Of a DNA stretch of 64,000 nucleotides, positions 14,541 to 53,894 are shown in pieces (the first letter of the stretch is position 1; each line of letters begins with the position of its first letter). The translations under genes and the position numbers were made by a program. The notes below the pieces were generated by a model, which ran no database searches, was not told the origin of the DNA, and worked only from the letters and a program-made list of their open reading frames with translations. Location of the stretch: NCBI RefSeq assembly GCF_022479115.1, contig NZ_CP092497.1, positions 6,076,001 through 6,140,000 on the forward strand. The letters run 5' to 3'. This DNA comes from Amycolatopsis sp. EV170708-02-1 (lineage in GTDB: Bacteria > Actinomycetota > Actinomycetes > Mycobacteriales > Pseudonocardiaceae).

Positions 14541-14618
14541 GAAGGACGCTTTCCCCGCATCAGACGCAGTGAAAGGGCCCTTCACCGCATCACATGCGGT
14601 GAAGGGCCCTTTCAGCCC
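14541..14618. repeat. 78-bp composite inverted repeat, copy 1
   Basis: Between the convergent glutamine synthetase and trpA stops. A perfect 21-bp stem (14570-14590 with 14594-14614, 3-nt loop) forms its right half. The left half (14541-14569) carries GCTTTCCCCGCAT without a good partner. The whole 78 bp aligns without gaps to 53817-53894 at 66 of 78 positions. Confidence 0.85.
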
Positions 14619-14627
14619 ACGTAGGGA

Positions 14628-15419
14628 TCAAGCGGGGGTGACGGCCTTCCGCACACCCGCGGCCAATTCGGCCGAAAGCCCGCGTACCGCGTCGGTCCCG
14701 CTCGCCGCGGCCGTCACCAGTGCCGAGCCGACGATGACGCCGTCCGCGAACCCGGCGACCTGCGCCGCCTGCTCGCCGGACCGGACGCCGATCCCGACAC
14801 CGATCGGCAGTTCCGTATGCGCGCGGGTGCGCTCGACCAGCTCCTCGGCGTGCACGCCGACCTGGTCACGGGCGCCCGTCACGCCCATCACGGCGGTGGC
14901 GTACACGAAACCCGAAGCGGCCGCGACGGTCTTCGCGATCCGCTCCTCCGAAGAGGAGGGCGCGACCAGGAAGATCCGGTCCAAACCATGCTGCTCGGAG
15001 GCGGCCATCCACTCGTCGGCCTCGTCCGGGATCAGGTCCGGGGTGATCATCCCGAGCCCGCCCGCGGCGGCGAGATCCCGCGCGAAGCGGTCGACGCCGT
15101 AGCGGTGCACCGGGTTCCAGTACGTCATCACGACGGCCTTGCCGCCGCGCGACGACACCGACTCGACGACCTCGAACAGGTGCTTGAGCTTGAAGCCGCC
15201 CGAGAGCGCGCTCACCGAGGCGGCCTGGATGGTCGGGCCGTCCATCACCGGGTCCGAGTAGGGCACGCCCACCTCGACCAGGTCGGCGCCGCCGTCGACC
15301 ACCGCGGCCAGCAGATCCTTGGACCCGTCGACCGTCGGGAAGCCCGCCGGAAGGTAGCCGATCAGCGCGCCGCGCCCCTCGGCCCGGGTCTTCGCGAAGA
15401 TCTCGTCCAGCGCGCTCAT
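14628..15419 (-). CDS. trpA: Tryptophan synthase alpha subunit
   Basis: TrpA cleaves indole-3-glycerol phosphate to indole, which passes to TrpB. The 263-residue TIM barrel shows the catalytic Glu in [15 protein letters not shown] (near residue 50) with the catalytic Asp in YSDP, and the phosphate-binding [10 protein letters not shown] and VIVGSALV loops. It overlaps trpB by ATGA (15416-15419), consistent with the equimolar alpha2-beta2 complex. It is the last gene of the trp cluster and is followed by a repeat hairpin. Confidence 0.97.
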
Positions 15420-16645
15420 GCGTTCTCCACCAGGCCGAAGTACTTCGCGGCGGTGTCCATGTCCTTGTCGCCGCGACCGGACAGGTTCACGATGATCAGC
15501 CCCTCGGGGCCGAGTTCACGGCCGAGCACCAGCGCGCCGGCCAGCGCGTGCGCCGACTCGATCGCCGGGATGATGCCCTCGGTGCGCGAAAGCAGCTTGA
15601 ACGCGTCCATCGCCTCGGCGTCGGTCACCGGCCGGTACTCGGCGCGGCCGCTGTCCTTGAGCCACGAGTGCTCCGGGCCGACGCCCGGGTAGTCGAGGCC
15701 CGCGGAGATCGAGTGCGATTCGACGGTCTGGCCGTCCTCGTCCTGCAGCAGGTACGTCATCGCGCCGTGCAGGTTGCCCGGGGTGCCCTTGGTCAGCGTG
15801 GCGCCGTGACGGTTCCCCTCGATGCCCTCGCCGCCCGGTTCGAGACCGACCAGGCGCACCGACGCGTCGTCGATGAAGCCGTGGAAGATCCCGATCGCGT
15901 TGGATCCGCCGCCGACGCAGGCCGCGACGGCGTCGGGCAGGCGTCCGGCCTGCTCCAGGATCTGGGCGCGGGCCTCCTCGCCGATGATCTTGTGGAAGTT
16001 CCGCACCATCATCGGGAACGGGTACGGGCCCGCCGCCGTGCCGAACAGGTAGTGCGTGGTGTCTGCGTTGGTGACCCAGTCGCGCAGCGCCTCGTTGATC
16101 GCGTCCTTCAGCGTGCGCGAGCCGGTCTTCACCGGGATGACCTCGGCGCCGAGCAGTTTCATGCGGGCGACGTTCAGCGCCTGCCGCTCGGTGTCGACCT
16201 CGCCCATGTAGACGACGCATTCCAGGTCCAGCAGCGCGCAGGCGGTGGCGGTGGCCACGCCGTGCTGCCCGGCCCCGGTCTCGGCGATGACCCGCTTCTT
16301 GCCCATCCGCTTGGTGAGCAGCGCCTGGCCGAGCACGTTGTTGATCTTGTGCGAACCAGTGTGGTTCAGATCCTCGCGCTTGAGGAAGATCCGGGCGCCG
16401 CCGGCGTGCTCGCCGAAGCGCTTGGCCTCGGTGAGCAGCGACGGGCGGCCGGCGTACTCGCGCAGCAGGCGCCGGAACTCGTTGACGAAGTCCGGATCGG
16501 TCCTCGCCTTGTCGTATTCCGCCGCGACCTCGTCGACGACGCCGATCAGGGCCTCGGGCATGAACCGGCCGCCGTAGGGGCCGTAGTAGCCCCGGCCGTC
16601 CGGGTCGTGCTCGCCGTGCGGTGTTTCGGTGTACTCCACGCTCAT
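15416..16645 (-). CDS. trpB: Tryptophan synthase beta subunit
   Basis: The PLP enzyme that joins indole to serine. The 409-residue protein contains the PLP-lysine motif HTGSHKINN near residue 90, the phosphate-binding loop VGGGSNAIG, and GRGDKD at the C-terminus. I chose ATG 16645 ([10 protein letters not shown]): it overlaps the trpC stop as ATGA (16642-16645), whereas the ATG 18 bp upstream would extend into trpC. Coupled to both neighbours. Confidence 0.97.
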
Positions 16646-17451
16646 CGAGAAGGCCTCGGGCAAGCGGGGTGCGAACCGGCGGTCACGAGCTTGACCAGGG
16701 CGCCCTTCGGGTCTCCCGAAGCGACGAGCCCTTCGCCCACGAGGACGGCGTCGGCGCCGTGACCCGCGTACGACATCAGGTCACCGGGGCCGCGGACACC
16801 GGACTCGGCGATCTTGAAGACGTCCATCGGCAGGCCGGGGGCCAGCCGCGAGAAGACGTCGCGATCCACCTCGAGGGTGTGCAGGTTGCGGGCGTTGACG
16901 CCGATCACCTTGGCGCCGGCTTCGAGCGCCTTGTCGGCCTCTTCGGCGTTGTGGATCTCGACCAGCGCGGTCATCCCGAGGGATTCGACGCGGTCCAGCA
17001 ACGCGATCAGGGCGTTCTGCTCCAGCGCGGCCACGATCAGCAGGACCATGTCCGCGCCGTGCAGCCGCGCCTCGTGGACCTGGTACGGGCTGACGATGAA
17101 GTCCTTGCGCAGCACCGGGATGTCGACCGCCGCGCGGACCGCGTCGAGGTCGGCGAGCGAACCGCCGAACCGCCGCTGCTCGGTCAGCACGCTGATCACC
17201 CGCGCGCCGCCGTCGGCGTAGTCCTTCGCCAGCGCGGCCGGATCCGGGATCTCGGCCAGATCGCCCTTGGACGGGCTGCGCCGCTTCACCTCGGCGATGA
17301 CGCCGATACCGGACTCGCGCAGGGCCGCGAGGACGTCACGTGGGGGCGCGACCTGGGTCGCGCGCTTCTTCAGTTCGTCGAACGGCAGAGCCGCCTCGCG
17401 CTCGGCGAGATCGGCACGGACGCCGGCGACGATGTCTTCGAGCACGCTCAC
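16642..17451 (-). CDS. trpC: Indole-3-glycerol phosphate synthase
   Basis: A 269-residue TIM barrel that closes carboxyphenylaminodeoxyribulose phosphate to indole-3-glycerol phosphate. Family motifs are [13 protein letters not shown] (catalytic Glu and Lys), [20 protein letters not shown] and AESGVRGP. The start is GTG. No phosphoribosylanthranilate isomerase domain is fused and no trpF is nearby, so PriA is the likely supplier of its substrate. A 192-bp gap separates it from the membrane gene upstream, leaving room for a separate promoter (TAGCAT at 17532-17537 on the minus strand is a candidate). Confidence 0.97.
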
Positions 17452-17643
17452 CGGAGTCCCTCACCGGCCGTCGTACTCACGGATTCCTTCGCAAGGTCGC
17501 TCACAAAAACCTTCCCCTTCCCGCCGAAACGATGCTAACCCCCGCACGGATACGGCCTGGTTCCGGGTATGTCCGTTACTCCGAATGCCCACCGTGTCAT
17601 CTTTCCCGGCGTAGATCTCCGAAACCCGCGAATTCCGCCGTCG
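17452..17643. other. Intergenic gap inside the trp cluster
   Basis: No gene is seen in these 192 bp. On the minus strand TAGCAT (17537 to 17532) could be a -10 box for trpC. I see no convincing hairpin or leader peptide with tryptophan codons. Confidence 0.4.
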
Positions 17644-18212
17644 TCACCGGGTCGCGGTGGGATCTTCGCCGTCGGACAGCGCCTCCCACAGCTCGGTCTC
17701 CGGATCCTTCGCGGCCTTCTTCTTCGCCCCCGGCGCCGAATACTTCGCGCCGAGGCGCGGCATCCGGCCCGCGCCCTTGATGGCTGCCAACCCGCCCGCG
17801 GTCACGAGAATTCCCCGAGGATCGCGAGGCCGCGGGCTCCCAGCATCTGGGCGACGGGCAGTCCGTCGGCGAATCCGCTGAACGAGCCGCCCGCCACGCC
17901 GATCCACACCGCGGCGACACCGGCCACGGCGAGTACCACGCCGAGCACCCGCCGTGGCCAGCCGCCGGTGGCGATCAGCCCCGCGGTGCCGGCGAGCGCC
18001 AGCAACGCGAGGGGAATCAGCGCAATCGCACGCTGTGAACCGGTTTCCGTGTACAGCACGGTGCCGCGCACGCCGCCGTCGCGGAACTCCGCGAACCACA
18101 CGAGCTGCGAGGAACCCCACAACGCGACCGCGCCCAGCAGCAGGCCCACCACGGCGATCCACAGTGGACGCTTGGCTTTCTTCGCCGGGGCGTCAGACAC
18201 GAGTGCTGTCAC
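17644..18212 (-). pseudogene. Trp-operon-associated membrane protein, broken by a single-base frameshift
   Basis: The N-terminal frame (ATG 18212) has a basic start and three to four hydrophobic segments (WIAVVGLLLGAVALWG, IALIPLALLALAGTAGL, VLGVVLAVAGVAAVWIG). It then hits TGA just after LAILGEFS. In the neighbouring frame the normal end continues: GILVTAGGLAAIKGAG, then the hallmark RMPRLGAKY and an acidic tail with LWEALSDGEDPT. Adding one base to the C-run at 17813-17816 (a G on the coding strand) joins the halves into about 189 residues, the usual size. The family sits between trpE and trpC throughout actinomycetes; its function is not known. It overlaps the trpE stop by 20 bp. Sequence error is likelier than decay. 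Confidence 0.8.
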
Positions 18213-19764
18213 CCGCCGGGTCGAGTTCGTCCGCCGCGATCATCGTCTGCGCCGCCGCGACGGCGGAAAGCACCGTGCGGGCCTTGTTGAGCGACTCGTT
18301 GTCCTCGTAGTCGGCCACCGAGTCCGCGACGACCCCGCCGCCCGCCTGGACGTACGCCGTGCCGTCCTTCATCAGCGCGGTGCGGATCGCGATCGCGGTG
18401 TCGGCGTCCCCGGCGAAGTCGAGGTAGCCGACAACGCCGCCGTAGAGCGCCCTGCGGGTGGGCTCCAGCTCCTCGATCAGCTGCATCGCGCGGACCTTCG
18501 GCGCGCCCGAGAGCGTCCCCGCCGGGAAACAGGCGGTGACGGCGTCGAAAGCCGTCTTGTCGTCGAGGAGTTCCCCGGTGACCGTGGAGACGATGTGCAT
18601 GACGTGGCTGTAGCGCTCGACGTCGAAGAAGTCGACGACGCGCACGGTGCCGGGCTTGCAGACCTTGCCGAGGTCGTTGCGGCCGAGGTCGACGAGCATC
18701 AGATGCTCGGCGCGTTCCTTCTCGTCCGCGAGCAGGTCCTTGGCCAGCTGCGCGTCCTCCTCCGGATCGGCGCCACGCCAGCGGGTGCCCGCGATCGGAT
18801 GCGTGGTCGCGCGGCCGTCCCGCACGGTGACCAGCGACTCCGGGCTGGATCCGACGATGTCGAAACCGTCCAGGCGCAGCAGGTACATGTACGGGCTCGG
18901 ATTGGACGTGCGCAGCACGCGGTAGACGTCGAGCGCGTCGGCCTGGGTCTCGATCTCGAAGCGTTGCGACGGCACGATCTGGAACGCTTCACCGGCCTTG
19001 ATCGCCTCGACGGCCTTCTCGACGGCGGCGTGGAAGTCCGGCTTGGAGCGGCGGCGCGTGAATTCGGGCGCGGGACGATCGAAGACCGCGGCCGTGGCCG
19101 GGGCGGCGACGTGCAGCTGCTTGGTCATCGCGTTCAGGCGCGCGACGGCGTCGTCGTACGCGGCGTCGACGCGCTCGGCCGAGTCGTCCCAGTTGACCGC
19201 GTTGGCGATCAGGGTGACGGTGCCCTCGTGGTGGTCGAAGGCGGCCAGGTCGGTCGCCAAGAGCATGGTGAGCTCGGGGATGTCGAGGTCGCGCTCGGCG
19301 AGCTCGGGGAGCCGTTCGAGCCAGCGGACGGCGTCGTAGCCGATGTAGCCGACCATGCCGCCGGTGAGTGGCGGCATCCCGGGCAGCTGCTCGGTGTGCA
19401 GCGCGGCGACGGTCTCACGCAGAACGGTGAGCGGGTCGCCCTCGGTCGGCAGGCCGACCGGCGGGGTGCCGGTCCACACCGCCTCGCCGTCACGCACGGT
19501 CAGCGCGGCGGGGCTGTCGACGCCGATGAACGACCATCGGCTCCAGGAAGCGCCGTTCTCCGCCGATTCGAACAGGAACGTCCCCGGCCGGTCGGCGGCG
19601 AGCTTGCGGTAGACCCCGATGGGGGTCTCACCGTCGGCGAGCACGCGACGGACGACGGGGATGACGCGACGGCCCTCGGCGAGCGCGCGGAACTCGTCGC
19701 GCGAAGGGCTGACCGAGCCGAGCCCCGAGGGGCTGGCGTTTGCGGCGCTGACCATGTCGCTCAT
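18193..19764 (-). CDS. trpE: Anthranilate synthase component I
   Basis: TrpE makes anthranilate from chorismate. The 523-residue protein has the N-terminal feedback motif around [10 protein letters not shown] (the LLES-like Ser that binds tryptophan) and the catalytic chorismate domain with [46 protein letters not shown] and [12 protein letters not shown]. The start at ATG 19764 (MSDMVSAAN) is preferred; an in-frame ATG at 19809 would begin inside a palindrome and lacks family sequence. No partner glutaminase (trpG) is in the window, so it must be borrowed from elsewhere, as is common in actinomycetes. Confidence 0.96.
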
Positions 19765-19802
19765 TGTGCTGCAACGGCCGTGAGGACCTGGACGGGGGGA
19801 TG

Positions 19803-19822
19803 AATTCAAAGATTGTTGAATT
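19803..19822. promoter_or_regulatory. Inverted repeat between trpE and a TetR gene
   Basis: AATTCAA-N6-TTGAATT (19803-19822) lies in the 86-bp divergent gap. It is the obvious operator for the TetR protein read rightward, whose own -10 candidate CATGAT (19839-19844) is 6 nt before ATG 19851. Control of trpE by the same regulator is possible but unproven. Confidence 0.55.
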
Positions 19823-19850
19823 TCTGGCCGGGTCCGTTCATGATGACGCC

Positions 19851-20455
19851 ATGGCTGGTGAAGACACTACCGTGCGACGACGGGGCGGCGGCCCGGCGGA
19901 CAGGACACCCGGACCGCGTTGATCGAAGCGGCGCGCGCGGTGTTCGGCGAGAGCGGTTTCGACGGCGCGACCGTGCGCGCGATCGCGACGCGGGCCGGGG
20001 TCGACGCGGCGATGGTCAACCACTGGTTCGGCAGCAAGGAAGGATTGTTCGCCCAAGCCATCCTGAAGCTCCCGTTCGACCCGCACGAACTGCTCGCCGA
20101 ACTCCAGAACGGGCCCGACGACGAGTTCGGCCGGCGGATCGTGCGCACCTTCCTCACCCGATGGGACGGCGCGGGCGGCGAGGTGTTCCAGGCCCTCGTC
20201 CGCAGCGTCGCCGGGCACGAACAGGCCGCGGCCGTGCTGCGCGGTTTCTTCCAGAACTTCTTCACGAAGGTCATCGGCGGACTGGGCTCGGACCGCGTCG
20301 AACTGCGGACCACGCTCTGCGCTTCCCAGCTCGTCGGGATGGGGCTGGTGCGCTACGTCGCGAAGTTCGAGCCGATGGCTTCGAGCGAGATCGAGCCCTT
20401 GGTGACCGCGATCGCTCCGACGGTGCAGCGCTATCTCACCGGCGACATCGACTGA
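19851..20455 (+). pseudogene. TetR family regulator, broken by a single-base frameshift near its N-terminus
   Basis: The frame from ATG 19851 gives [15 protein letters not shown] and then stops. The body (LIEAARAVFGESGFDGATVR, AMVNHWFGSKEGLFAQAI, and a TetR C-terminal domain) is open in another frame from about 19895. Adding one C to the CCC run at 19892-19894 yields GGQDTRTALIEAAR and a full 201-residue repressor. Initiation at the TTG at 19919 would lose part of helix 1. It is clearly related to the TetR at 23969-24571 (DGATVR.IA, FG.K..LFA, and the same spacing at the C-terminus). The ligand is unknown. Its stop codon lies in the palindrome that follows. Confidence 0.75.
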
Positions 20456-20504
20456 CTCGTGAGTGGTAAGGACGGTTCTAACCGTCCTTACCACTCACGA
20501 GTCA
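20453..20504. repeat. Perfect 52-bp palindrome covering two stop codons (family shared with 30905-30950)
   Basis: Arms 20453-20477 and 20480-20504 pair perfectly over 25 bp around a central CT. Its first three bases are the TGA of the TetR gene and its last three are the stop of the convergent hypothetical gene. It differs from the copy at 30905 by two base pairs, both changed in a compensating way. Confidence 0.9.
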
Positions 20505-21107
20505 GGCCGTGTCCGGCTCGATTTCCTTGACGGGGACCGTGTAAAGCGTGTCCTTGAAGAAGCGCCCGCGCGGGAAGATCACGATCATGTCGGTGTCCTC
20601 GCCGCCGATGAAGACGGGGACTTTCTCGAGCCCTTTGAAACGGGGAGCGATCCGCAGCGACCGGCGCGTCTGAAGCAACTTGTAGTCGCGGTCGAGATAG
20701 ACGTCGATCCTGGGGAACAGCCAGCCGGGTCGCACGGTCGCCATGGCCTCGCGCAAACCGGTGCTCTCAGCGGACCGACGGCGGCCCTTCCAGAGCCAGG
20801 CGGCGTACAGACACGCCGGAATACCGTAGAAAGCCGCCAAAGAAAGCGGGGCCAGCACCTCGAACCGGCGATCTTCCGAAACTATCTGACACGCGACGAA
20901 GTAAGCGATCCAGAACACCGCCCAAGCCGTCGCCCGTTGTTCGAGAAGCGACAGTTTCCCGATCAAGGGGGTGGCCACTTCTTCGTGGACCGTCGGCGGC
21001 TCGAAGCTTTCGGTGAAGTCGTCGTCCGTACCGGAACGAGGTCGCCCGGCGACCCTTGGACGTCGTCTCGGACCGTCGATCTTCTTTTTCCCTCGCCCCA
21101 GTTTCAT
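20502..21107 (-). CDS. Hypothetical membrane protein (MKLG paralogue 2)
   Basis: A 201-residue protein with a basic, Arg/Lys-rich N-terminus, two hydrophobic helices (ATAWAVFWIAYFVACQIV near residue 60 and LAPLSLAAFYGIPACLYAAW near residue 85) and a soluble C-terminal domain ending VFIGGEDTDMIVIFPRG then a V/I-P motif. The same C-terminal pattern and the same MKLG start occur in the next gene upstream, so they are probably paralogues. The -10 candidate TAACCT (21119 to 21114) stands 6 nt before the ATG. I do not recognise a function. Confidence 0.7.
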   Translation of the reverse strand: MKLGRGKKKIDGPRRRPRVAGRPRSGTDDDFTESFEPPTVHEEVATPLIGKLSLLEQRATAWAVFWIAYFVACQIVSEDRRFEVLAPLSLAAFYGIPACLYAAWLWKGRRRSAESTGLREAMATVRPGWLFPRIDVYLDRDYKLLQTRRSLRIAPRFKGLEKVPVFIGGEDTDMIVIFPRGRFFKDTLYTVPVKEIEPDTA

Positions 21108-21209
21108 GCACTGAGGTTAATCGAGAAGAGCGGGCTTTCCGGATAACGAGTCGCTTCTCGCTCCAGGGCAACCGTGAGCGCCCCGCGCGCGTGCAAGTGA
21201 ACAGGCGCC

Positions 21210-22001
21210 TCAGGCCGACGCCGTCCGGGTGGCTTCACCGATGGGTTCCGTCCGCGCGGGGATCGGATAGGGTTTCCCGCTCATCATGCCGCGCGGGAAC
21301 AGCACGACCAGATCGCCACCCTCGCCGCCCACCTGAACCGGCGTAGCTCCCCAATTCCGGTACCGGAACGGTGAGCGGGCGCACCACGCCGTGGCCCACG
21401 CGACGGACTCGGTCCCGTCCTCGGACACGAGATGGATCACCAGCGGGTGTCGCCTGTCGCCGCTGCGGTCCCGTTTCACCGTCGCGACCGCAGGACGCCA
21501 CCCGGACGCCCTCACCAAGTGGTACCGACGACGCCAGCCCGCGGCGGAAAGCCCCGAGCACACGGCGCCGACGAAGCCGATCGCCAACGGGAAAACGCCC
21601 GCCTTGCCGAATGGCTCCGCGTTCGTCTCGTTTTCGAGACGCATCCGGCCGGGATTCGCGGGATCGTAGAACACCATGACCGATCCGTAAGGCTCGTATT
21701 CATGGTCGTGATGCTTGTGGACCAGCACTTCCCGGCGCTCCGTCCGCACCCAGTACTCCACCCGCATATGGCCGCGATCCGGTATGTCGACCACGGTGCC
21801 GTTGACCCGATTCCCGGTTTCCAGCAAGGCGGCGGACCGGGTCCATGGCGAGACCACGATGAAGATCCCGGCGACGAACACGAGAAGGAACATCGGAGCG
21901 AGCACCGCGGACCGCAGCGCCAGCCTCTTCAGCCGCGGTGTCTCCGCGGCCGGATCCGCGACGCCGATCGTGGGCGTTTCCGGCACGGCCCCCAGTTTCA
22001 T
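21210..22001 (-). CDS. Hypothetical membrane protein, DUF3592-like (MKLG paralogue 1)
   Basis: The 263-residue protein has a strong transmembrane helix near residues 30-52 (VLAPMFLLVFVAGIFIVVS), an extracytoplasmic beta domain of the DUF3592 kind (GTVVDIPDRGHMRVEYWV, VFYDPANPGRMRLE), a second helix (VFPLAIGFVGAVCSGLSAAG) and a C-terminal domain ending GGEGGDLVVLFPRGMMSG. The -10 candidate TAAAAT (22013 to 22008) is 6 nt before ATG, so the message is probably leaderless. Function unknown. Confidence 0.72.
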   Translation of the reverse strand: MKLGAVPETPTIGVADPAAETPRLKRLALRSAVLAPMFLLVFVAGIFIVVSPWTRSAALLETGNRVNGTVVDIPDRGHMRVEYWVRTERREVLVHKHHDHEYEPYGSVMVFYDPANPGRMRLENETNAEPFGKAGVFPLAIGFVGAVCSGLSAAGWRRRYHLVRASGWRPAVATVKRDRSGDRRHPLVIHLVSEDGTESVAWATAWCARSPFRYRNWGATPVQVGGEGGDLVVLFPRGMMSGKPYPIPARTEPIGEATRTASA

Positions 22002-22058
22002 ACACCGATTTTACGCCGCCGGAAGGGTCACCGGGATAGGACCAAGGTCCCGACGGCG

Positions 22059-22421: not shown

Positions 22422-22424
22422 GGG

Positions 22425-23930: not shown

Positions 23931-23968
23931 GGGGACAAGCGTAGTCAAGGGCGTTCTAAGCTCGCGGA
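23931..23968. promoter_or_regulatory. Divergent promoter between hisF and a TetR gene
   Basis: In this 38-bp gap the two -10 boxes (TACGCT leftward at 23943-23938; TAAGCT rightward at 23957-23962) form the arms of one imperfect inverted repeat, AGCGTAG-N11-CTAAGCT. Each box is 6-7 nt from its start codon. A TetR dimer bound here would cover both promoters. Confidence 0.55.
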
Positions 23969-24571: not shown

Positions 24572-24581
24572 CTTCCCGGGA

Positions 24582-30904: not shown

Positions 30905-30950
30905 CTCGTGAGTGGCGAGGACGGTTCTAACCGTCCTCGCCACTCACGAG
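30905..30950. repeat. Perfect 46-bp palindrome (family shared with 20453-20504)
   Basis: Arms 30905-30926 and 30929-30950 pair perfectly around CT. It includes the stop codon of the DUF1330 gene. Compared with the copy at 20453, a TA in the left arm is CG here and the facing TA in the right arm is CG as well. Confidence 0.9.
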
Positions 30951-41991: not shown

Positions 41992-42044
41992 GTCGCGAAA
42001 GCCACTTTCGAGACATCAGACGTCGCGAAAGTGGCTTTCGCGAC
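41992..42044. repeat. Inverted repeat with 19-bp perfect arms
   Basis: GTCGCGAAAGCCACTTTCG (41992-42010) pairs perfectly with 42026-42044 across 15 nt. Each arm itself holds a CGAAAG...CTTTCG subrepeat. Lies in the convergent MMPL/NADAR gap. No second copy of this type is seen in the window. Confidence 0.8.
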
Positions 42045-42068
42045 GCGCCGCTTGGCCCGCCCCTCGAT

Positions 42069-42127
42069 AAGTACGTGAAGGCCCCCTTCATTGCGTCTAG
42101 CGCAGTGAAGGGGGCCTTCACGTACTT
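42069..42127. repeat. Inverted repeat with 22-bp perfect arms (GTCCGTG family variant)
   Basis: Arms 42069-42090 and 42106-42127 pair perfectly; the 15-nt loop has further TGCG/CGCA pairing. The right arm runs into the stop codon of the NADAR gene. The core ACGTGAAGGCCCCCTT matches the arm of 9611-9669 with only two changes. Confidence 0.85.
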
Positions 42128-42692
42128 AGGTGAGCGCCGCGCGGGCCTCTCCCAGCGCGAAGCCGAGCAGGTTCAGCCCGCGCCAGCGTTCGGCGTTTTC
42201 GACGTGCGGATGGTCAGCCGCCAGCCCGATCCCCCAGACGGAGTCCAGCGGGCTGGCCTCGACCAGCACACGATTCCTGGTGCCGAGCAGGAAGTCCCGC
42301 AGGTCCGGATGTTGCCGGAACTTCGCGACCGTTCCGTCGAGAACGATGCCGTAGCGTTCGTCCTCCCAGCGAGCCTGCTCGAATCCCCGCACTTCGCGGC
42401 CCAGAGCCTTGGCCTCACGAGGGTGCCGCGCACCGAGGATCCGTGCCGCGCTCCCGGCGTCGTCGAACAGGATCGCCTTGCGCCACATCATGTAGTGCTC
42501 GGCAGTCGGGAAGGTTTCGCCGTCGGCGGTGAACCGGGCGGGCCACCACTGGCTGAAGCATCCGGGACCGACCGTGCCGTCGCGCCGAGGCTGATGGCCC
42601 CAGAAGCAGAGGAATTTGACCCGGCTCCCCGATCGCTGGAGCCGGACGACTTCGGCGACCGAGCGCGGGTTTCCGGACATGCCGGACAGCAT
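42126..42692 (-). CDS. NADAR family protein
   Basis: 188 residues. FLCFWGHQP, FSQWWPARF and the TAEHYMMWRKAILF motif with ARRIL-like HPREAKALGREV are the hallmarks of the NADAR/YbiA fold, tied to NAD-derived or riboflavin intermediates (N-glycosidase activity on ADP-ribose-like groups). Another possible start is ATG five codons further in (MSGNPRSV). Convergent with the MMPL gene. Confidence 0.85.
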   Translation of the reverse strand: MLSGMSGNPRSVAEVVRLQRSGSRVKFLCFWGHQPRRDGTVGPGCFSQWWPARFTADGETFPTAEHYMMWRKAILFDDAGSAARILGARHPREAKALGREVRGFEQARWEDERYGIVLDGTVAKFRQHPDLRDFLLGTRNRVLVEASPLDSVWGIGLAADHPHVENAERWRGLNLLGFALGEARAALT

Positions 42693-44403: not shown

Positions 44404-44415
44404 GAAACGCGGGGG

Positions 44416-47434
<3,019 letters not shown>

Positions 47435-47485
47435 GGGTCAAGGGTACGAGGTGGCCGGATCGCCCCGAGCAGGCACACTGGGGTG
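47435..47485. promoter_or_regulatory. Divergent promoters of hisD and the nitrilase gene
   Basis: In 51 bp: leftward TACCCT (47446 to 47441), 6 nt before hisD; rightward CACACT (47474-47479), 6 nt before GTG 47486. No -35 boxes are clear and no attenuator or histidine-rich leader peptide fits in the space. Confidence 0.5.
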
Positions 47486-48313
47486 GTGACCAGCGATCCC
47501 ACGATGAGGGAGGCCTCCGTGCCGCGAATCGGGTTGTGCCAGCTCACGGCGGCCGAGGATCCCGAAACGAACCTGAAGCTGATTCGCGAAGGCGTGACGG
47601 CCGCGGCGGCCGAGGGCGCGCGGATCGTGGTGTTCCCCGAGGCGGCGATGGCGCGCTTCGGCATCCCGCTCGCGCCGGTCGCGCAGCCTTTGGACGGTCC
47701 GTGGGCGTCCACAGTGGCGGCACTCGCCGACGAGCACGGTGTCGTGGTCGTCGCGGGCATGTTCACGCCGTCGCCCGACGGCCGCGTGAGCAACACGCTG
47801 CTCGTCACCGGCGCCGGGCATCACTTCGGCTACGACAAGATCCACCTGTACGACGCGTTCGGGTTCGCCGAGTCCGACACGGTCGCCCCGGGGACCAAAC
47901 CTGCCACCTTCGAAGTCGACGGGGTCACCTTCGGCGTCGCGACCTGTTACGACATCCGCTTCCCCGAACTGTTCCGGAAGCTGGCCGACGACGGCGCCGA
48001 CATCGTGCTCGTGCCCACGTCCTGGGGCGCGGGCGAGGGCAAACGCGAGCAGTGGGAGGTGCTGGTGCGCGCCCGCGCGCTCGACTCCGGCTGCTGGGTG
48101 CTGGGCTGCGGGCAGGCCGATCCGGCCACGACCTCGACCCCGGTGAACCCCAAGGCACCGACCGGGATCGGCTACTCCACGGTGTCCGACGGTTTCGGCC
48201 GCGTCCACACCCAGCTGGGCGCCGGACCGGAACTGGTGGTCGTCGACCTGGATCCGGCGGTCAGCGGGAAGGCGCGGGCGGCGACGGGCGTTCTGGCGAA
48301 CCGTCGCCTTTAG
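47486..48313 (+). CDS. Carbon-nitrogen hydrolase (nitrilase superfamily)
   Basis: 275 residues with the catalytic triad: Glu in VVFPEAAMAR, Lys in GYDKIHLYDA and Cys in VATCYDIRFPEL. The pattern resembles Nit1/omega-amidase-type deaminated-glutathione amidases, but the exact amide is uncertain. GTG 47486 fits the 6-nt leaderless spacing; GTG/ATG further in (MREASVPRIG at 47504) is an alternative. Its last 53 bp overlap the convergent Lrp gene. Confidence 0.9.
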   Translation: MTSDPTMREASVPRIGLCQLTAAEDPETNLKLIREGVTAAAAEGARIVVFPEAAMARFGIPLAPVAQPLDGPWASTVAALADEHGVVVVAGMFTPSPDGRVSNTLLVTGAGHHFGYDKIHLYDAFGFAESDTVAPGTKPATFEVDGVTFGVATCYDIRFPELFRKLADDGADIVLVPTSWGAGEGKREQWEVLVRARALDSGCWVLGCGQADPATTSTPVNPKAPTGIGYSTVSDGFGRVHTQLGAGPELVVVDLDPAVSGKARAATGVLANRRL

Positions 48314-48749
48314 CGTCCACAGACCGCTCGAAGAAGGATTCGAGCACCACGATCGTCTGCGTCCCGGTGACCCCCTCGATCGCGTACAGCCTCCGCAGGG
48401 AGGCCTGCAGCTCCTCGGTGGTCGGCGTGCGCACCTTCACCAGCAGCGAGGCCGGGCCCGCGATGATGTGCGCCTCGACGACCTCCGGCAACGCCTCCAG
48501 CGCGGCCTTGGTCGGCGCGTCGCCCATCCACGAACCCGCCTCGACCAGCACGAACGCCATCACTCCCCGGCCGACGGCCGCCGGATCGACGTCGACGGTC
48601 GTGCGCCGGATGACGCCCTGTTCGCGCAGTTTGCGGACCCGTTCGTGCGCGGCGCCGGCGGACAGCCCGACCGCCTTGCCGAGCGCGGCGTACGCCTGAG
48701 TCGCGTCCTGCTGCAACGCGGTGAGCAGCATGCGATCCACGTCATCCAT
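48261..48749 (-). CDS. Lrp/AsnC family transcriptional regulator
   Basis: 162 residues: N-terminal HTH (MLLTALQQDATQAYAALGKA, AAHERVRKLREQGVI) and RAM domain (VMAFVLVEAG, ASLLVKVRTPTTEEL), which binds amino acids. TATGGT (48761 to 48756) is 6 nt before ATG. It is divergent from the SMP-30 gene, the most likely target along with itself. A Pro/Ser tail extends over the end of the nitrilase gene. Confidence 0.92.
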   Translation of the reverse strand: MDDVDRMLLTALQQDATQAYAALGKAVGLSAGAAHERVRKLREQGVIRRTTVDVDPAAVGRGVMAFVLVEAGSWMGDAPTKAALEALPEVVEAHIIAGPASLLVKVRTPTTEELQASLRRLYAIEGVTGTQTIVVLESFFERSVDAKGDGSPERPSPPAPSR

Positions 48750-48819
48750 GGGTTGACCATATCAAGTTCGGCGGTTCATGATGATCGCAATATCTCATTC
48801 GGAACACTGGGGTTCTCTC

Positions 48820-49713
48820 ATGGACATGGTCAAGGCGCACTTCGAAGTCCTCGACGAGCGGTTCGCCCGCGTCAACGGCGACGAGTGGATGCGGCGGCTG
48901 CACACCGGCTGCCGGTGGACCGAAGGGCCCGCCTACTTCCCCGCCGGGCGGTACCTGGTGTTCAGCGACATCCCGAACGACCGGGTGCTGCGCTGGGACG
49001 AGACCACGGGCGCGGTCGGTGTGTTCCGCGAGCCCGCCGGATTCCACAACGGGCACACCGTCGACCGGCTGGGCAGGCTCGTCAGCTGCGAACAGGGTGG
49101 CCGCCGGGTGACGCGCACCGAGCACGACGGCACGACCACCGTCCTCGCGGAGACCTATCAGGGCAAGAGGTTCAACAGCCCCAACGACGTCGTCGAGTCC
49201 TCGGACGGCGCGATCTGGTTCACCGACCCGAGTTACGGCATCGAAAGCGACTACGAGGGCCACCAAGCCGAGAGCGAGATCGGCGCCTGCCACGTCTACC
49301 GCGTCGATCCGGATGGTTCCGTGCGGATCGTCGCGGACGATTTCTCGCGTCCGAACGGGCTCGCGTTCTCGCTCGACGAATCGCTGCTCTACATCGCGGA
49401 CACGCGCCAGAGTCCCAGCCACATCAGGGTTTTCTCGGTGGATGGATCCGTGCTGTCGGGCGGCGAGGTCTTCGCGACGAGTGACGCGGGCGGTTTCGAC
49501 GGGGTCCGCGTGGACGCCGCCGGGCGGGTCTGGGCCGCCGCGCACGACGGCCTGCACTGCTTCGCGCCCGACGGCACGCGGATCGGGAAACTGCGGGTGC
49601 CGGAGGTCTGTTCGAACCTGACCTTCGGCGGGCCGCGGTGGAACGACCTGTTCATCACCGCGTCCAGTTCGGTGTACACGCTGCGGGTGAACTTCTCGGG
49701 GCCGCGGTTCTAG
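48820..49713 (+). CDS. SMP-30/gluconolactonase family protein
   Basis: 297-residue six-bladed propeller. Metal-site motifs: RWTEGPAYFPAG (Glu), GKRFNSPNDVVESSDGAIWFT (Asn-Asp) and DDFSRPNGLAFSLDE with ADTR. Such enzymes hydrolyse lactones. ATG 48820 (MDMVKAHFEV) is preferred; an in-frame ATG at 48778 would add residues without family match. Its stop overlaps the convergent response regulator gene by 4 bp. Confidence 0.88.
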   Translation: MDMVKAHFEVLDERFARVNGDEWMRRLHTGCRWTEGPAYFPAGRYLVFSDIPNDRVLRWDETTGAVGVFREPAGFHNGHTVDRLGRLVSCEQGGRRVTRTEHDGTTTVLAETYQGKRFNSPNDVVESSDGAIWFTDPSYGIESDYEGHQAESEIGACHVYRVDPDGSVRIVADDFSRPNGLAFSLDESLLYIADTRQSPSHIRVFSVDGSVLSGGEVFATSDAGGFDGVRVDAAGRVWAAAHDGLHCFAPDGTRIGKLRVPEVCSNLTFGGPRWNDLFITASSSVYTLRVNFSGPRF

Positions 49714-50366
49714 CGCAGCAGGCCTTCCCGGATCGCCACGCGGACGAACCCCGCCCGCCGCCGCTCGCCGGTCTTGTCCCGGATCCGGTCGAGATAGGAC
49801 CGCACCGTCCGCACGCTGATGTTCAGGATCTCCGCCACGTCGACGTCCCGTTCGCCGGCCGCGACCAGCCGCAGGACCTGCTTTTCCCGCTCGGACAGGA
49901 CGATCTTGGGCCCGGCGTGGCGGTCTTCGCTGTCCTGGATGATCATCCCGGCCAGCGTCGGCGACACGTACGCGTTGTCTTCGGCGATGGTGCGGATGGC
50001 GCGCAGGAGTTCGTCGCCGTCGACGTCCTTCGACAGGAAGCCCTTCGCCCCGGCCTGCATGGCGCCCAGCACCTCCGGCTGCTCGGCGTGCGCGGACACC
50101 ACGAGCACCTTGTGCCCCATCTGCCCCACCTCGAGTACCGCGGCGGCGTCCTGGACACCGCGCAGCTTGAGGTCGAGGACGACGACGCTGCCGGGAGGCT
50201 GCTCCTGGACGGCGAAGCGCGCGACGGAATCCGCGACGGCACCCAGCTCGATGTCCGGCGCTTCGGTGAGGACACGCGCGACGGCGTCCCGGTACAGCGG
50301 ATGATCTTCGATCACCCCGACGTTGATCGGCGTACTGCGTTTCGGCTGCTGCTCGTCTGCGTTCAC
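49710..50366 (-). CDS. NarL/LuxR-family response regulator 1 (distal to eccB)
   Basis: 218 residues. Receiver domain: acidic pocket VIEDHPLYRDA, phospho-Asp in VVVLDLKLRG, Thr/Ser in VLVVSAHAE, Lys in GFLSKDV. LuxR HTH: LSEREKQVLRLVAAGERDVD. It is a close paralogue of the gene just upstream (about 60 percent by eye), and the two overlap by ATGA. No histidine kinase is in the window. Confidence 0.92.
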   Translation of the reverse strand: MNADEQQPKRSTPINVGVIEDHPLYRDAVARVLTEAPDIELGAVADSVARFAVQEQPPGSVVVLDLKLRGVQDAAAVLEVGQMGHKVLVVSAHAEQPEVLGAMQAGAKGFLSKDVDGDELLRAIRTIAEDNAYVSPTLAGMIIQDSEDRHAGPKIVLSEREKQVLRLVAAGERDVDVAEILNISVRTVRSYLDRIRDKTGERRRAGFVRVAIREGLLR

Positions 50367-51103
50367 CGGCGTCCTTCGAATCCGCCCGCGTCGGCGCGGG
50401 GCGCGACCGGCCGAGACGGACCGGGCACCTCCGGCGGAGACGCGAGCCCGAGCTGGATGGCCTTGCGGACCAGACCGGCCCGCCTTCTCTCTCCGAGTTT
50501 GTCACGGATCCGGTCCAGATAACCGCGAACCGTCCGAACTCCGATGCCCAGGATGCGGGCGATGTCCACGTCGCGTTCGCCCGCGGCGACGAGCCGCAGG
50601 ACCTGCTTCTCCCGCGCGGAGAGCGCGACGTCCGGCGCCGACACGGGACGGTCGGCGTTGTCCTTGATGATCATTCCGGCCACCACCGCGGAAACGTACG
50701 CCCGGCCTCGCGCAACCGTCCTGATCGCGGTCAGCAGCTCGTCGACGTCGACGTCCTTGGACAGGAAACCCTTGGCACCGGCCGCGATCGCGCCGAGCAC
50801 CTGCTCGGGCTCGGCCTGCGCGGACACCACGAGCACGTGATGCCCCAGTTCGCACACCTGGAGCACGGCCGCCGCCCCGGCGATCCCCGGCAGGCCGAGG
50901 TCGAGCAGCACCACGCTGCCGGGCGGCTGCGGATGGACGTGGAACCGGGCGACCGAATCGACCACCGCGCCCAGCTCGATGCCTTCGGCTTCGGTGAGGA
51001 CCCGCACCACGGCGTGCCGGTACAGCGGATGGTCTTCGATCACCGCGACGTCGACCCGGTCGGTCTCCGGCCTGTCTTCGGTCCTCTGCACGTTCCCGAT
51101 CAC
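50363..51103 (-). CDS. NarL/LuxR-family response regulator 2 (coupled to eccB)
   Basis: 246 residues from GTG 51103, whose GTGA overlaps the eccB stop. Receiver motifs VIEDHPLYRHA, VVLLDLGLPG, VLVVSAQAE, GFLSKDV and HTH LSAREKQVLRLVAAGERDVD are all present, plus a Pro/Arg-rich tail absent from its paralogue. Coupling to eccB suggests it controls, or responds to, the ESX system. That link is inferred from context. Confidence 0.9.
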   Translation of the reverse strand: MIGNVQRTEDRPETDRVDVAVIEDHPLYRHAVVRVLTEAEGIELGAVVDSVARFHVHPQPPGSVVLLDLGLPGIAGAAAVLQVCELGHHVLVVSAQAEPEQVLGAIAAGAKGFLSKDVDVDELLTAIRTVARGRAYVSAVVAGMIIKDNADRPVSAPDVALSAREKQVLRLVAAGERDVDIARILGIGVRTVRGYLDRIRDKLGERRRAGLVRKAIQLGLASPPEVPGPSRPVAPRADAGGFEGRR

Positions 51104-52524
51104 CCCGTCCCACCCGCCGCGGGCACCGCACGGCCCGCTTGCGCCGGATCCAGCGCGGGACCGCGCGGAACCAGTGCCAGCAATCCATTCGGAACCGGCT
51201 GCCGGTCGGCTTGGCCGTAGCCGAGGGAAGCGAGTGCCTCGGCGCTCGCCACCGGGTACTTCTGGCCCGTGTCGGTGACGACGTAGACCGTGCCGGAACC
51301 GGATTCCGCCACCACCGCGCCGCCCGACGGGGGCACGAAGACGGCGTCGGCGACCAACGCGTCCGTCCGCGCGGTCACCGGGATCGCCTTCGCACCTTGC
51401 GGCAACGGGACCTGTGCGGAGATAACGATTCGAGAACCCTGTGCGCATAACGTCACGGACTGTCCGGTAACGGGCGCTTTTCGCGGGATCCGGTCCGGAT
51501 ACTCCGCGGGATCGGCCCCGCCGGCCCTCGCCGTGCCCACCTTCGGCACCGCGGCGACGTCGGCCGCGCGCACCGCGACGGGCGCCGGGACTCCGGTGTA
51601 GGCGTCGGCGTTCTGCGGGGTGTTGATCAGCAGGCTCGCCTCGGTCTGGCCGATCGGTTCGAGCCCTTCGGCACGGACGAGGTAGTACGACGTCGCGTCG
51701 TTCGGCGACGCCATCGCGTCGACGACACCGAGCACCGAACCGACCTTCGTCGAGACGCCGCCGACCTTCGGGCCGGGCCGCCCGGCGTCTTCGACCGCGC
51801 GGTAGGCCAGATCGCGTCCGGCGGCGACGGTGCCGATCCACCGGGAGGACACCGCGATCGCCGGGTAGGTGTCGAACTGCAGCGCCGTGGCGGCCTCCGG
51901 GGTGAGCTTGTAGCGGCGCCCGGCCGTCACGAGGTAGCGCTCCCCCTCGGGGACACGGACCACGACGGCCTGATCCCTCGGCAGGTCGATCCCGGCGGCG
52001 GGCGCGCCGAGGAGCACCGTGGTCTCCGGTTCGGCCGACGCGGGCGCGTCCTGGGTCGTCCGCGAGCAGGCCGTCCACGGGGTGTTCACCAGCGCGGCCG
52101 CCGCGGGCAGCGAATCGGGGGCGCCGGGGATGCCGATCTGCGAACCCCTCGGCGCCTTCGCGAGCTTGTCGGACGGGACGGTCACGGTGGCCTCGCCGTT
52201 GCCGCCCGCCATCAGCCGCGCGGAGGCGTAGTTGAGCACCGGATGCAGAGCGCCGTCCTGGCCGAGGATGTAGCGCGCGCCGGTGTCTTCCTCGACGATC
52301 ACCTTGCCGCCCGCCAGCCAGTCCTTGCCGCCGGAAGGGTTCAGGAGGCCGATCACGCCGAACACGGCGGTGACCAGCAACGCCACGCCGAGGCCGCACA
52401 GGGTGCCGATGACGAGCCTGCGGCTCGGGGCGACCGGATGGTTGGCGTCAGCCGAGACCAGTGCCGAAACCAGTCTCCTGCGGAGGAATTGGTAGGCCTG
52501 GATCTGGTCCCGCTGCGTCCACAC
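51100..52524 (-). CDS. eccB: Type VII secretion core protein EccB
   Basis: 474 residues: the short cytoplasmic start with the family signature QAYQFLRRRLVSALV, a single transmembrane helix near residues 37-62, and a long extracytoplasmic part with the EccB repeat domains (for example YPAIAVSSRWIGTVAAG and YPVASAEALASLGYG, near the C-terminus). Cysteines in TPWTACS and VTLCAQGS fit the conserved disulfide. GTG start. First gene of the eccB-response regulator operon, divergent from eccE. Confidence 0.95.
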   Translation of the reverse strand: MWTQRDQIQAYQFLRRRLVSALVSADANHPVAPSRRLVIGTLCGLGVALLVTAVFGVIGLLNPSGGKDWLAGGKVIVEEDTGARYILGQDGALHPVLNYASARLMAGGNGEATVTVPSDKLAKAPRGSQIGIPGAPDSLPAAAALVNTPWTACSRTTQDAPASAEPETTVLLGAPAAGIDLPRDQAVVVRVPEGERYLVTAGRRYKLTPEAATALQFDTYPAIAVSSRWIGTVAAGRDLAYRAVEDAGRPGPKVGGVSTKVGSVLGVVDAMASPNDATSYYLVRAEGLEPIGQTEASLLINTPQNADAYTGVPAPVAVRAADVAAVPKVGTARAGGADPAEYPDRIPRKAPVTGQSVTLCAQGSRIVISAQVPLPQGAKAIPVTARTDALVADAVFVPPSGGAVVAESGSGTVYVVTDTGQKYPVASAEALASLGYGQADRQPVPNGLLALVPRGPALDPAQAGRAVPAAGGTG

Positions 52525-52670
52525 GCTCCCGTCCCCCGCCGTTCGTGCCCACCCGTTTGGAGGGTGCTCACGTTAGGTCCGGCCCCGGTTCGCGGTGAGG
52601 GTATTTTTTACGCCCCTCCCCGCGCGGGGCGGGGCTACCGTCGGGCGCGTGCACGGAGGAGGGGAATTCC

Positions 52671-53744
52671 TTGTCGGTTGACGCCCCGGCCCGCCCGGTC
52701 CGGCGAGAGACACCCGCGCGCGGCGTCGCGGGCGCGGCGCCGCTGCCCTGGCTGCTGCCGGTCCGCCCGCTGCAGGCGGCGCTCTGGGAGATCGCAGGGA
52801 TCGCGATCCTGCTGGCCTTCACCGTCGACGCGATCCCCCAGGCCGCGCGGATCAGCATCGCCGCCGTCGCCGGAGTCCTCGTGCTGACGACGTCGGTCCG
52901 CTTCGCCGGACGCCACGCCGCGGGCTGGGTGCTCACTTGGGCCGGTTACCGGCTGAACCGCCGGAAAAAGCCCGAAGTCCCCGATCCGCTGCACCGGATC
53001 GCCGGTCCGGTCCGGGTACGTCAGCACGTCGACCGCGCGGGCAACCGGTTCGGCGTCGCCGAGGTGAGCGACGGGTGGAGCGCGATCGTCCGGCTCACCC
53101 CCGGCGCCATGTCTCCCGCGCCGGACACCCTCGTCGGCATCCTGCGTGACGCGTACACGAATACCGGGATCCCTTTGTCCAGCGCGCAACTGCTGACCTG
53201 GACCGTCCCCAATGGACAGTCGGTGCTGCGCGTCCGCTGGCTCACCGTCCGGTACCGGCCCGAGGACGCGCCGATCGCGGCGCTGGCCAGGGGCGGCGGG
53301 GAACTGGGCGCGCTGCGGAGCACCGCCTGCGCGGCGCTGTCGCTCATGGGCGCGCTGGCCGAAGCCGGGTTCGAGAGCACCGTGCTCGAAGCCGGCGAGG
53401 TGGCGGAAAACCTGCGCGTGGCGCTCGGCAGCGGCCACGACGCGCCGGTGGACGGCTGGCGCGCCTGGGAGTGGGGCGGCGCGTCGCAGGTCTGCTACCG
53501 GCCACGGTCGGAGCGGGATCTCGCGCGGACACTGGATCTTCACGTCCCCGGCTCGGCGTTCACCGCGACTTCGTACACGCTGTACCGCTCTCCCGGCGGG
53601 CGCGAGAAGTCCGAAGTGACCATCCGGGTCGGCGGGCGGCCGGGGGCGGAAACGGTGCGGCCCAGCGGGATCGCGGTGACCCCGCTGCACGGACGGCACG
53701 CGGCGGCGGTCCGGCGGACCCTGCCGCTGGCGCTGGAGAACTGA
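52671..53744 (+). CDS. eccE: Type VII secretion protein EccE
   Basis: 357 residues. Two transmembrane helices near residues 35-80 (LWEIAGIAILLAFTVDAIP; ISIAAVAGVLVLTTSV) followed by a cytoplasmic/peripheral domain with the EccE-typical RHAAGWVLTWAGYR and SDGWSAIVRLTPG. TTG start behind AGGAGG. It is the only Ecc gene besides eccC on the + strand and is divergent from eccB. Confidence 0.88.
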   Translation: MSVDAPARPVRRETPARGVAGAAPLPWLLPVRPLQAALWEIAGIAILLAFTVDAIPQAARISIAAVAGVLVLTTSVRFAGRHAAGWVLTWAGYRLNRRKKPEVPDPLHRIAGPVRVRQHVDRAGNRFGVAEVSDGWSAIVRLTPGAMSPAPDTLVGILRDAYTNTGIPLSSAQLLTWTVPNGQSVLRVRWLTVRYRPEDAPIAALARGGGELGALRSTACAALSLMGALAEAGFESTVLEAGEVAENLRVALGSGHDAPVDGWRAWEWGGASQVCYRPRSERDLARTLDLHVPGSAFTATSYTLYRSPGGREKSEVTIRVGGRPGAETVRPSGIAVTPLHGRHAAAVRRTLPLALEN

Positions 53745-53751
53745 GGGGACG

Positions 53752-53805
53752 GTCCGTGGAGGGTTCCTTTCTTCTCTGAGGGTAGGGAAGGAATCCTCCA
53801 CGGAC
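53752..53805. repeat. Inverted repeat with 20-nt arms (GTCCGTG family)
   Basis: 53752-53771 pairs with 53786-53805 with two G-U pairs, so it is favoured as RNA. The outer arm GTCCGTGGAGG..TCCTT is shared with 9611-9669. Lies 7 bp after the eccE stop. Confidence 0.8.
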
Positions 53806-53813
53806 GTGACGCC

Positions 53814-53894
53814 GCTGAAGGGCGCTTTCCCCGCATGCGACGCGGGGAAAGCGCCCTTCACCGCATGGCATGCGGGGAAAGTCCCCTTCAGCCC
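53814..53894. repeat. 78-bp composite inverted repeat, copy 2, with alternative pairings
   Basis: The left arm 53816-53834 pairs perfectly (19 bp) with 53842-53860, but 53814-53838 can also pair with 53868-53892 over 25 bp with two or three mismatches. A small inner stem (53861-53866 with 53870-53875) fills the rest. 53817-53894 aligns gap-free with 14541-14618. The right end covers the eccD stop. Confidence 0.85.

Follow-up and report, generated by a model that had tools for sequence, protein, structure and literature searches.

A dispersed REP-like hairpin repeat at convergent gene ends of Amycolatopsis, and a second hairpin family as a putative attachment site of a serine integrase

Background

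Repetitive extragenic palindromes (REPs) are short, high-copy bacterial palindromes that occur in several families with a patchy distribution. They sit between convergent and unidirectional genes, a role has been described for their GTAG tag (PMC3733652), and they form hairpin doublets (REPINs) with REP-associated tyrosine transposases (RAYTs) (PMC3116915). We describe two closely similar 78-bp sequences in a stretch of 64,000 nucleotides from Amycolatopsis sp. EV170708-02-1 (contig NZ_CP092497.1, positions 6,076,001 to 6,140,000), hereafter the window. They are best explained as three-box copies of a dispersed, REP-like element, here called family A, that is found in the Amycolatopsis orientalis group.

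Several other systems bear on these repeats. A class of REPs tagged CGTC has no known dedicated transposase (PMC3733652). In the DNA uptake sequence (DUS) terminators of Neisseria and Pasteurellaceae, inverted pairs of a high-copy sequence serve a second purpose as gene-end hairpins (PMC1852404). REPs, often between convergent genes, also serve as specific targets of insertion sequences (ISs) of the IS3, IS110, IS4, IS256 and IS5 families, with half-sites flanking the insert (PMC1525189). The attB sites of serine integrases measure 40-50 bp and have a central dinucleotide (PMC3783163), and among multi-targeting large serine recombinases, of which the domain DUF4368 is typical, one integrase lineage uses many attB sites with a common core dinucleotide (PMC10083194). 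Actinomycete integrative and conjugative elements (AICEs) carry an integrase and an FtsK/TraB-like protein between att sites, and a survey found serine recombinases in 19 of 144 (PMC3218068). In Streptomyces, read-through between convergent genes yields antisense RNA, the cutoRNAs (PMC3765725).

Results

The two copies in the window (Table 1) align over 78 bp without a gap and with 12 mismatches (blastn E 1.4e-20 within the window), as an earlier note on this DNA had reported. Both lie, again as described there, between a plus-strand stop and a minus-strand stop, the neighbors being a glutamine-synthetase-like gene and trpA at copy 1 and the genes for EccE and EccD at copy 2. Copy 1 begins 11 bp beyond the plus-strand stop (14529) and ends 9 bp ahead of the trpA stop (14628), and at its right end copy 2 runs into the stop codon of EccD (53888-53890). 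The arms, or boxes, are 13-bp near-palindromes (GAARGNNNCYTTC) that alternate with 17-bp small hairpins (CCGCRTNNNAYGCGG type), giving a composite plan of box-hairpin-box-hairpin-box. The middle box can pair with the left or the right box but only with one at a time, so that two mutually exclusive long hairpins can form. The pairing proposed earlier was recovered in each copy: middle with right box in copy 1, and in copy 2 left with middle box in full, as well as left with right box at 2 of 13 mismatched box positions. RNA folding of both copies on both strands gave z-scores of -6.2 to -7.5, with 0 of 200 shuffles as good each time. Neither copy has a T-run directly after the stem, and the window matches no Rfam family.

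Family A is dispersed. Forty samples of 20 kb (0.8 Mb) spread across the genome, a single contig of 9.66 Mb, contained 20 elements, 13 two-box and 7 three-box, and the reversed sequence of the same sample contained none; extrapolation gives about 240 copies per genome. A separate 0.4 Mb contained 12 elements, and a stricter cut left 16 and 10 in the two samples. These counts exclude hairpins of another family, F, that fit the box plan of A, of which two were removed from the 0.8 Mb and one from the 0.4 Mb. When copy 1 was used as a query against the whole genome, 40 scored places were obtained among 215 candidates, and a pattern for the small hairpin occurred 218 times in the genome vs 31 times in the reversed control. 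Of 32 family A elements, 20 were convergent, 9 codirectional and 2 divergent, with 1 at a sequence edge. A convergent position thus holds for both window copies, as the earlier note had it, and for the family it is a tendency (20 of 31 non-edge elements) rather than a rule. Neither of the two outcomes that the note named as contrary to its reading was found. Of 60 genomes of the genus, 24 have family A; a stricter cut applied to the whole bacterial family finds it in 24 of 297 genomes and 4 of 46 genera.

At least six dispersed hairpin families can be told apart in this genome, A among them, and jointly they are concentrated at convergent gene ends. The others are B (CTCGTGAGTGGYRAGGACGGTT centred on AG/CT), C and C2 (TCCGTGARGGCCTCCTT...), D (AGTACRTGAAGGCCCCCTTC...), E (CGCGTTTAGTCCTCTGAATGCGG...) and F (GTCGCGAAAGCCACTTTCG...). 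Shared 9-mers resolve four clusters (A with C and D, B, E, and F), and 9-mer clustering of all hairpins joined A, C and D into a set of 92 via a common box. The family borders are partly definitional, because A, C and D merge through this shared box and F also fits the plan of A. Gene context was taken from a codon model applied to 864 kb (770 genes and 729 junctions, 136 of them convergent), with some gene calls, including one contested strand, checked against Pfam. Long inverted repeats with a stem score of at least 18 (n = 47) fell into 31 convergent, 13 codirectional and 1 divergent position, 2 sequence edges and no gene. Weaker stems, with scores of 14-17 (n = 38), were convergent in 17 cases and codirectional in 19, with 1 at an edge and 1 intragenic. 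A hairpin was found in 27/46 convergent, 8/141 codirectional and 0/65 divergent spacers of 30-149 bp, and in 12/26, 16/83 and 1/60, respectively, of those of 150-800 bp. The window has 7 hairpins with a score of at least 14. All of them are at convergent junctions, and together they occupy 6 of its 8 convergent spacers of at least 30 bp. Convergent junctions with a gap below 10 bp had a hairpin in 0 of 56 cases; many of these overlap by exactly 4 bp, with shared stop codons.

Family sizes are uneven across the 60 genomes. Arms of B were matched in 52 of the 60 and number 0-350 per genome, and F ranges from 0 to 213 per genome and was found in 27. Distant members of the genus carry hairpins of different sequence (AGCGCCCCAATGTGGCCTTGG...; L119 and L130, from A. 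iheyensis and A. sp. MtRt-6, and also L115), and those of L119 and L130 follow a box-hairpin-box-hairpin-box plan like that of family A. A further hairpin family (GCTGTGAAGGGGCCCTTCACGGACTCAGAGTCCGTGAAGGGCCCCTTCACAGC), built on a box of this kind, occurs in a 6.9-Mb relative (G001, loci L215-L226), where a first look gave 563 candidates, 40 of them scored.

Orthologous sites were compared in relatives; by its EccD neighborhood the own genome groups with Amycolatopsis sp. WAC 01376, A. keratiniphila, A. azurea and A. orientalis (ten loci, 97-99% identity). At the trpA junction, the 11 loci that share both neighbors (own included) comprise 5 with three-box A, 5 with unrelated long hairpins and 1 with none (G007); three further loci sharing trpA only have a two-box A in two cases and another hairpin in one, and one locus is a contig end. 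At the EccD junction, no family A element lies within 1 kb in the 10 close named relatives. The locus L104 has there an F-type hairpin that fits the loose A pattern, and the genome G020 has a two-box A hairpin. The sequences as read show no added hairpin in L101, L102 and L106; the remaining loci have a small hairpin or hairpins from different families. The element is thus missing at some orthologous sites, as the earlier note had asked.

Comparison of 400-kb stretches of the own genome and three relatives (median protein identity 94-96%) gave 49 comparable convergent junctions. In 31 comparisons of repeat-family hairpins at these junctions, the relative had another hairpin in 18, none in 7 and the same one in 6, at a 70% identity cut-off; codirectional repeat-family hairpins gave 2 same, 2 other and 2 absent. 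Where the own genome has a hairpin, so does the relative in 24 of 33 comparisons; where it has none, the relative has one in 6 of 73. For spacers of at least 20 bp, these figures become 24/31 vs 4/14 (Fisher p 0.003). A hairpin thus tends to persist at orthologous convergent junctions, though often as a member of a different family. Half-arm remnants of E are seen by eye at two junctions of G019, and several families crowd one spacer in two cases (#157 of G031 and #222 of G020; # marks a junction). Microhomology at the boundaries is unremarkable, with a mean of 0.94 matching bases over 16 non-independent boundaries. At two sites, the right ends of #270 and of copy 2, 6-7 bases including the stop codon are shared on reading by eye, which is suggestive only.

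Most three-box copies keep one good long hairpin of the two mutually exclusive ones. In 30 aligned three-box copies, those most like copy 1 and chosen intact, mismatches in the better box pairing summed to 17, compared with 37.8 when the middle boxes were shuffled among the copies, and 0 of 20000 shuffles were as low. A perfect box pair is present in 22 of the 30 and both pairs are perfect in 4; the 20-bp stem of the better hairpin has at most 2 mismatches in 25. This best-of-two-hairpins box test is the informative one, though it ignores relatedness.

Family B has 232 copies in the own genome (0 in the control), and its elements have sharp ends. Forty-eight copies were 33 convergent, 12 codirectional, 2 divergent and 1 intragenic. 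At convergent copies, the element contains 11 of 66 gene ends and in these cases supplies the stop codon. The 48 copies are near-invariant outside the centre and one variable dinucleotide per arm, and this dinucleotide is fully matched between the arms in 41. They show no excess of direct repeats (target duplications) of 2-10 bp over shuffles. A search for arms of B, C, D and E over 2.4 Mb gave arm pairs at distances of 0.6-40 kb for B alone. There are three such pairs, and in every one of them a hairpin has been interrupted by an insertion; no match was obtained with the G pattern.

By way of unpaired B arms, two elements of 13.15 kb (Table 1) were located that are 99.96% identical. Both split a B hairpin exactly in half, and its central dinucleotide is duplicated (AG/AG, CT/CT). 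They encode a serine recombinase, with PF00239 (Resolvase) above the cut-off and PF07508 (Recombinase) just below it, and a protein of the FtsK/SpoIIIE family (PF01580 above the cut-off; the TraB model matches weakly, at 25 bits vs a cut-off of 800). No replication-initiator or excisionase domain was found in the 10 reading frames of the element, short frames being outside the scan. Three of the 10 have no Pfam match, namely one that matches an NsdA-type regulator, a frame without an NCBIfam match and one outside the NCBIfam scan. The 60 genomes contain 9 full-length integrase genes at 70% identity or more, 3 of them in the own genome, and the integrase-side end reads as a B-type arm followed by CT in 8/8 examined (of the 9 found). 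A third own integrase, 71% identical, adjoins a B arm at 1.126 Mb (L287). In a G022 fragment the arm is B-like, with TT. The integrase hosts contain dispersed B-type hairpins (G042 176, G039 39, G009 276, G035 59 and G007 81; control 0), and among the matches listed the G039 integrase sits in the commonest version of the G039 arm.

Family B looks like an attB because a 46-bp palindrome about a dinucleotide, AG/CT, matches the description of such sites. From its sequence and its junctions, the B hairpin appears to be the integration site of the large serine integrase on these conjugative-type elements, a statement that covers B and does not extend to A. An outer block (CGTGAGTG) and an inner CGGTT stand at fixed spacing around the dinucleotide in 8 of 9 genomes searched, and the 7-bp middle between them varies. 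Among listed copies, in which the outer and inner blocks are perfect because the list was built that way, the middle pairs perfectly in 8 of 50 in G021 (of 143 copies) and has 3 or more mismatches in 35; in G039 it pairs in 22 of 25 (of 39). The unpaired middle in G021 favours sequence recognition of B besides hairpin formation. The central dinucleotides of the 50 listed G021 copies are AG, CT, GG or CC and never self-complementary.

The centre of a B hairpin is also interrupted by an IS481-like insertion (PF13011, PF00665) in G019 (L166:4737-6107), with the palindrome centre on both sides. Integrases at 43-47% identity adjoin half-sites upstream of the integrase genes (L263-L268), and in some of these loci the half-sites resemble other hairpin arms by eye (CCGTGAAGGCCTC... 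in L264; CCAATGTGGCATTGG... in L265). Other hairpin families are possibly attB sites of other integrases. Plasmid and phage records matched the integrase only below 60% identity, and a sequence search gave it no solved-structure relative.

Table 1. Coordinates of the repeats, their neighboring genes and the 13.15-kb elements; positions are those of the window unless a locus is named, and L and G numbers are our handles for loci and genomes
Feature	Position	Strand	Details
Family C2 hairpin (GTCCGTGAAGGCCTCCTTGAGGGACTC...)	9611..9669		Convergent junction
Glutamine-synthetase-like gene	13573..14529	+	PF00120; convergent partner of copy 1; start 13573 is the codon-model call, the listed open reading frame starts at 13537
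Family A copy 1	14541..14618	+	Boxes 14541-14553, 14571-14583, 14601-14613
Family A copy 1, small hairpins	14554-14570, 14584-14600
Family A copy 1, long hairpin	14570-14614		Middle and right boxes
trpA	14628..15419	-	PF00290; other convergent partner of copy 1
Family B hairpin	20452..20505		46-bp palindrome centred on CT; fills convergent junction
Family B hairpin	30905..30950		Fills convergent junction
Family F hairpin (GTCGCGAAAGCCACTTTCG...)	41992..42044		Convergent junction of MMPL gene and NADAR gene
Family D hairpin (AGTACGTGAAGGCCCCCTTC...)	42068..42128		Junction of MMPL gene and NADAR gene, alongside F
EccE-like gene	52671..53744	+	PF11203; convergent partner of copy 2
Second imperfect hairpin, other sequence (GTCCGTGGAGGGTTCC...)	53752..53805		EccE/EccD junction; recognisable in L101-L110, G019, G031, G020; read in the sequence
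Family A copy 2	53817..53894	+	Boxes 53817-53829, 53847-53859, 53877-53889
Family A copy 2, long hairpin	53816-53860		Left and middle boxes
EccD	53888..55264	-	PF19053, PF08817; convergent partner of copy 2
13.15-kb elements	L036:2685-15829; L050:3817-16960		G000, 1.30 and 4.66 Mb

Discussion

The Amycolatopsis repeats resemble the REP/REPIN-RAYT systems in being short palindromes of several families, placed mostly in convergent or unidirectional spacers, with hairpin doublets, a patchy distribution and more than 100 extragenic copies per genome (A about 240, B 232). They differ in their three-box form and in the frequent replacement of one family by another at a single junction. In addition, the own genome has no match to PF01797 (Y1 transposase), which was found in 5 of 14 control genomes, and no GTAG end tag occurs in the A consensus or the B position table. 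A Y1-transposase REPIN system was rejected for want of a Y1 gene in the own genome, and with neither a RAYT nor a GTAG tag the repeats are classed as REP-like rather than REP. The CGTC-tagged REPs are similarly REP-like without a dedicated transposase, but the ends of A and B lack CGTC. The DUS terminators likewise reuse a repeat as a gene-end hairpin, whereas Amycolatopsis has several families and no U-tract. As an integration target, family B recalls the REPs hit by ISs, with the difference that what mainly inserts into it is a serine-integrase element of 13.1 kb, placed exactly at the central dinucleotide. The use of many sites with a common core recalls the multi-targeting recombinases, although in Amycolatopsis all these sites belong to a single dispersed type of 46-bp palindromic repeat, and DUF4368 is not among the Pfam matches of the element. 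In its integrase and FtsK/TraB-like protein the element is like the AICEs, for which the parts of the survey consulted name protein genes and a tRNA-Leu gene as sites and do not mention dispersed hairpins (PMC3218068).

An intrinsic terminator would also present a stable hairpin close after a stop codon, but with a T-run after the stem, which is lacking here. The earlier note had favoured a mobile or gene-converting element over an ordinary terminator. The first half of this contrast agrees in part with what was found: the elements are dispersed, patchy and absent at some sites, but the lack of target duplications in B and of a Y1 transposase in the own genome does not speak for transposition. 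The second half is unsupported, since the mostly convergent 3'-end position, the frequent upkeep of one perfect box pair and the retention of hairpins at orthologous junctions suggest a role at gene ends in addition.

As read from the sequence, the repeats are probably REP-like bidirectional gene-end hairpins without a U-tract that turn over by replacement, and this is the explanation we prefer. Either long hairpin would stop or stabilise transcripts arriving from both sides, so that any hairpin family could fill the slot. The action may be termination, which we infer, or a 3' barrier formed without a U-tract. Copies would be gained by clean insertion or by replacement of the short spacer, without a Y1 transposase encoded by the genome, and lost by deletion, which can leave half-arms. 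It is tentatively hypothesized, and may well be too strong, that convergent gene ends in the genus are "hairpin slots" in which selection keeps a hairpin, non-Y1 copying swaps the families, and serine-integrase elements have evolved to use one family as harmless attB sites throughout the genome.

A number of observations weigh against the preferred explanation. Fourteen of the 30 best-scoring A copies are codirectional, and hairpin flanks have a mean of 1.6 T per 8 (142 flanks), without a U-tract. The aligned three-box copies are those with the greatest likeness to copy 1, the shuffles took no account of kinship, and 5 of the 30 have 3 or more mismatches in both hairpins. One-strand RNA is not favoured by the middle-right mismatches (23 G-T vs 20 A-C), and those of the left-middle hairpin (11 G-T vs 55 A-C) mean that it pairs better as opposite-strand RNA. 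Per-pair covariation in the same alignment is mixed for middle-right and no higher than in shuffles for left-middle, where 101-460 of 500 shuffles reach the observed value in five measures. Among the 18 cases scored as another hairpin, 6 (#172-G019, #167 three times, #263 and #334) are by eye the same family or have a common outer arm, which leaves 12 clear replacements. The contrast with single-copy hairpins is thin, consisting of one convergent case (#280, same in 2/2), and codirectional low-copy hairpins gave 1 same, 3 other and 1 absent. The slot comparisons share junctions and are non-independent, and the effect is weaker at a stem score of 18 (12/20 vs 7/25, p 0.039; 0.066-0.072 with other gap limits). 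Palindrome arms can be perfected by template-switch correction. Perfect arms could also stem from this process, which is inseparable here from selection.

The repeats might instead be selfish, REP- or MITE-like sequences (MITE, miniature inverted-repeat transposable element) without a host function, of which survivors are seen only where they do least harm, in convergent and operon-end 3' spacers. Uneven amplification among relatives (B arms 0-350, F 0-213, A in 24/60), the piling of several families into one spacer and the elements at codirectional ends all speak for this explanation. It does not sit well with the slot statistics, though these are non-independent and weaken at the stricter cut, nor with the retention of one box pair by 22 of 30 A copies, most of which have let the other decay. 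The lack of target duplications in B and of a Y1 transposase in the own genome also counts against it, as do the almost empty divergent spacers of 30-800 bp (1 of 125), though promoters would be another possible reason for these. On balance we consider it rather unlikely.

A DNA-level role, as sites for a dimeric DNA-binding protein or a site-specific recombinase whose gene-end position results from safe insertion, would account for the fixed spacing of the B blocks about a varying middle and for the mostly unpaired middle in the listed G021 copies, although that of G039 is paired. Use of B by a serine integrase fits it directly. These points concern B alone, however; A has a 3-nt central loop and hence no symmetric central dinucleotide, and one binding protein would not explain why unrelated families fill the same slots. 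Judged from the sequences, such a role would be an improbable basis for the repeats as a whole. That two independent intrinsic terminators are alike by chance or base composition would be in keeping with strong hairpins in a convergent position. Copy number refutes it: at least 40 scored close copies in the genome, 218 small-hairpin occurrences vs 31, and 20 sampled elements vs 0 on the reversed control. The anatomy common to 30 aligned copies and the missing U-tract add to this, and we give the idea almost no credence.

We found no paper on these Amycolatopsis repeats in the open-access literature, and the words actinobacteria and Amycolatopsis are absent from the text of PMC3733652. As far as our searches reached, interchangeable gene-end hairpin families in actinobacteria are new, as is a serine-integrase element using one of them as a multi-copy attB.

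Conclusions

Since B hairpins appear to be the attB of this integrase, gene-end hairpins seem, on the evidence of family B, to double as harmless landing sites. If our explanation is true, the gene-end hairpins of a major antibiotic-producing genus would be interchangeable parts that spread and replace one another within a few percent of protein divergence, and selection on the hairpin, as opposed to its sequence, would be directly testable by comparison of orthologous junctions. Family B would provide a natural case of a large serine integrase with about 230 near-identical, mostly gene-safe sites per genome. These sites would be useful for understanding how conjugative elements spare their hosts, and are potential multi-copy integration sites in industrial strains. 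Were the "hairpin slot" hypothesis to hold, terminator turnover and the landing of mobile elements would share the same DNA.

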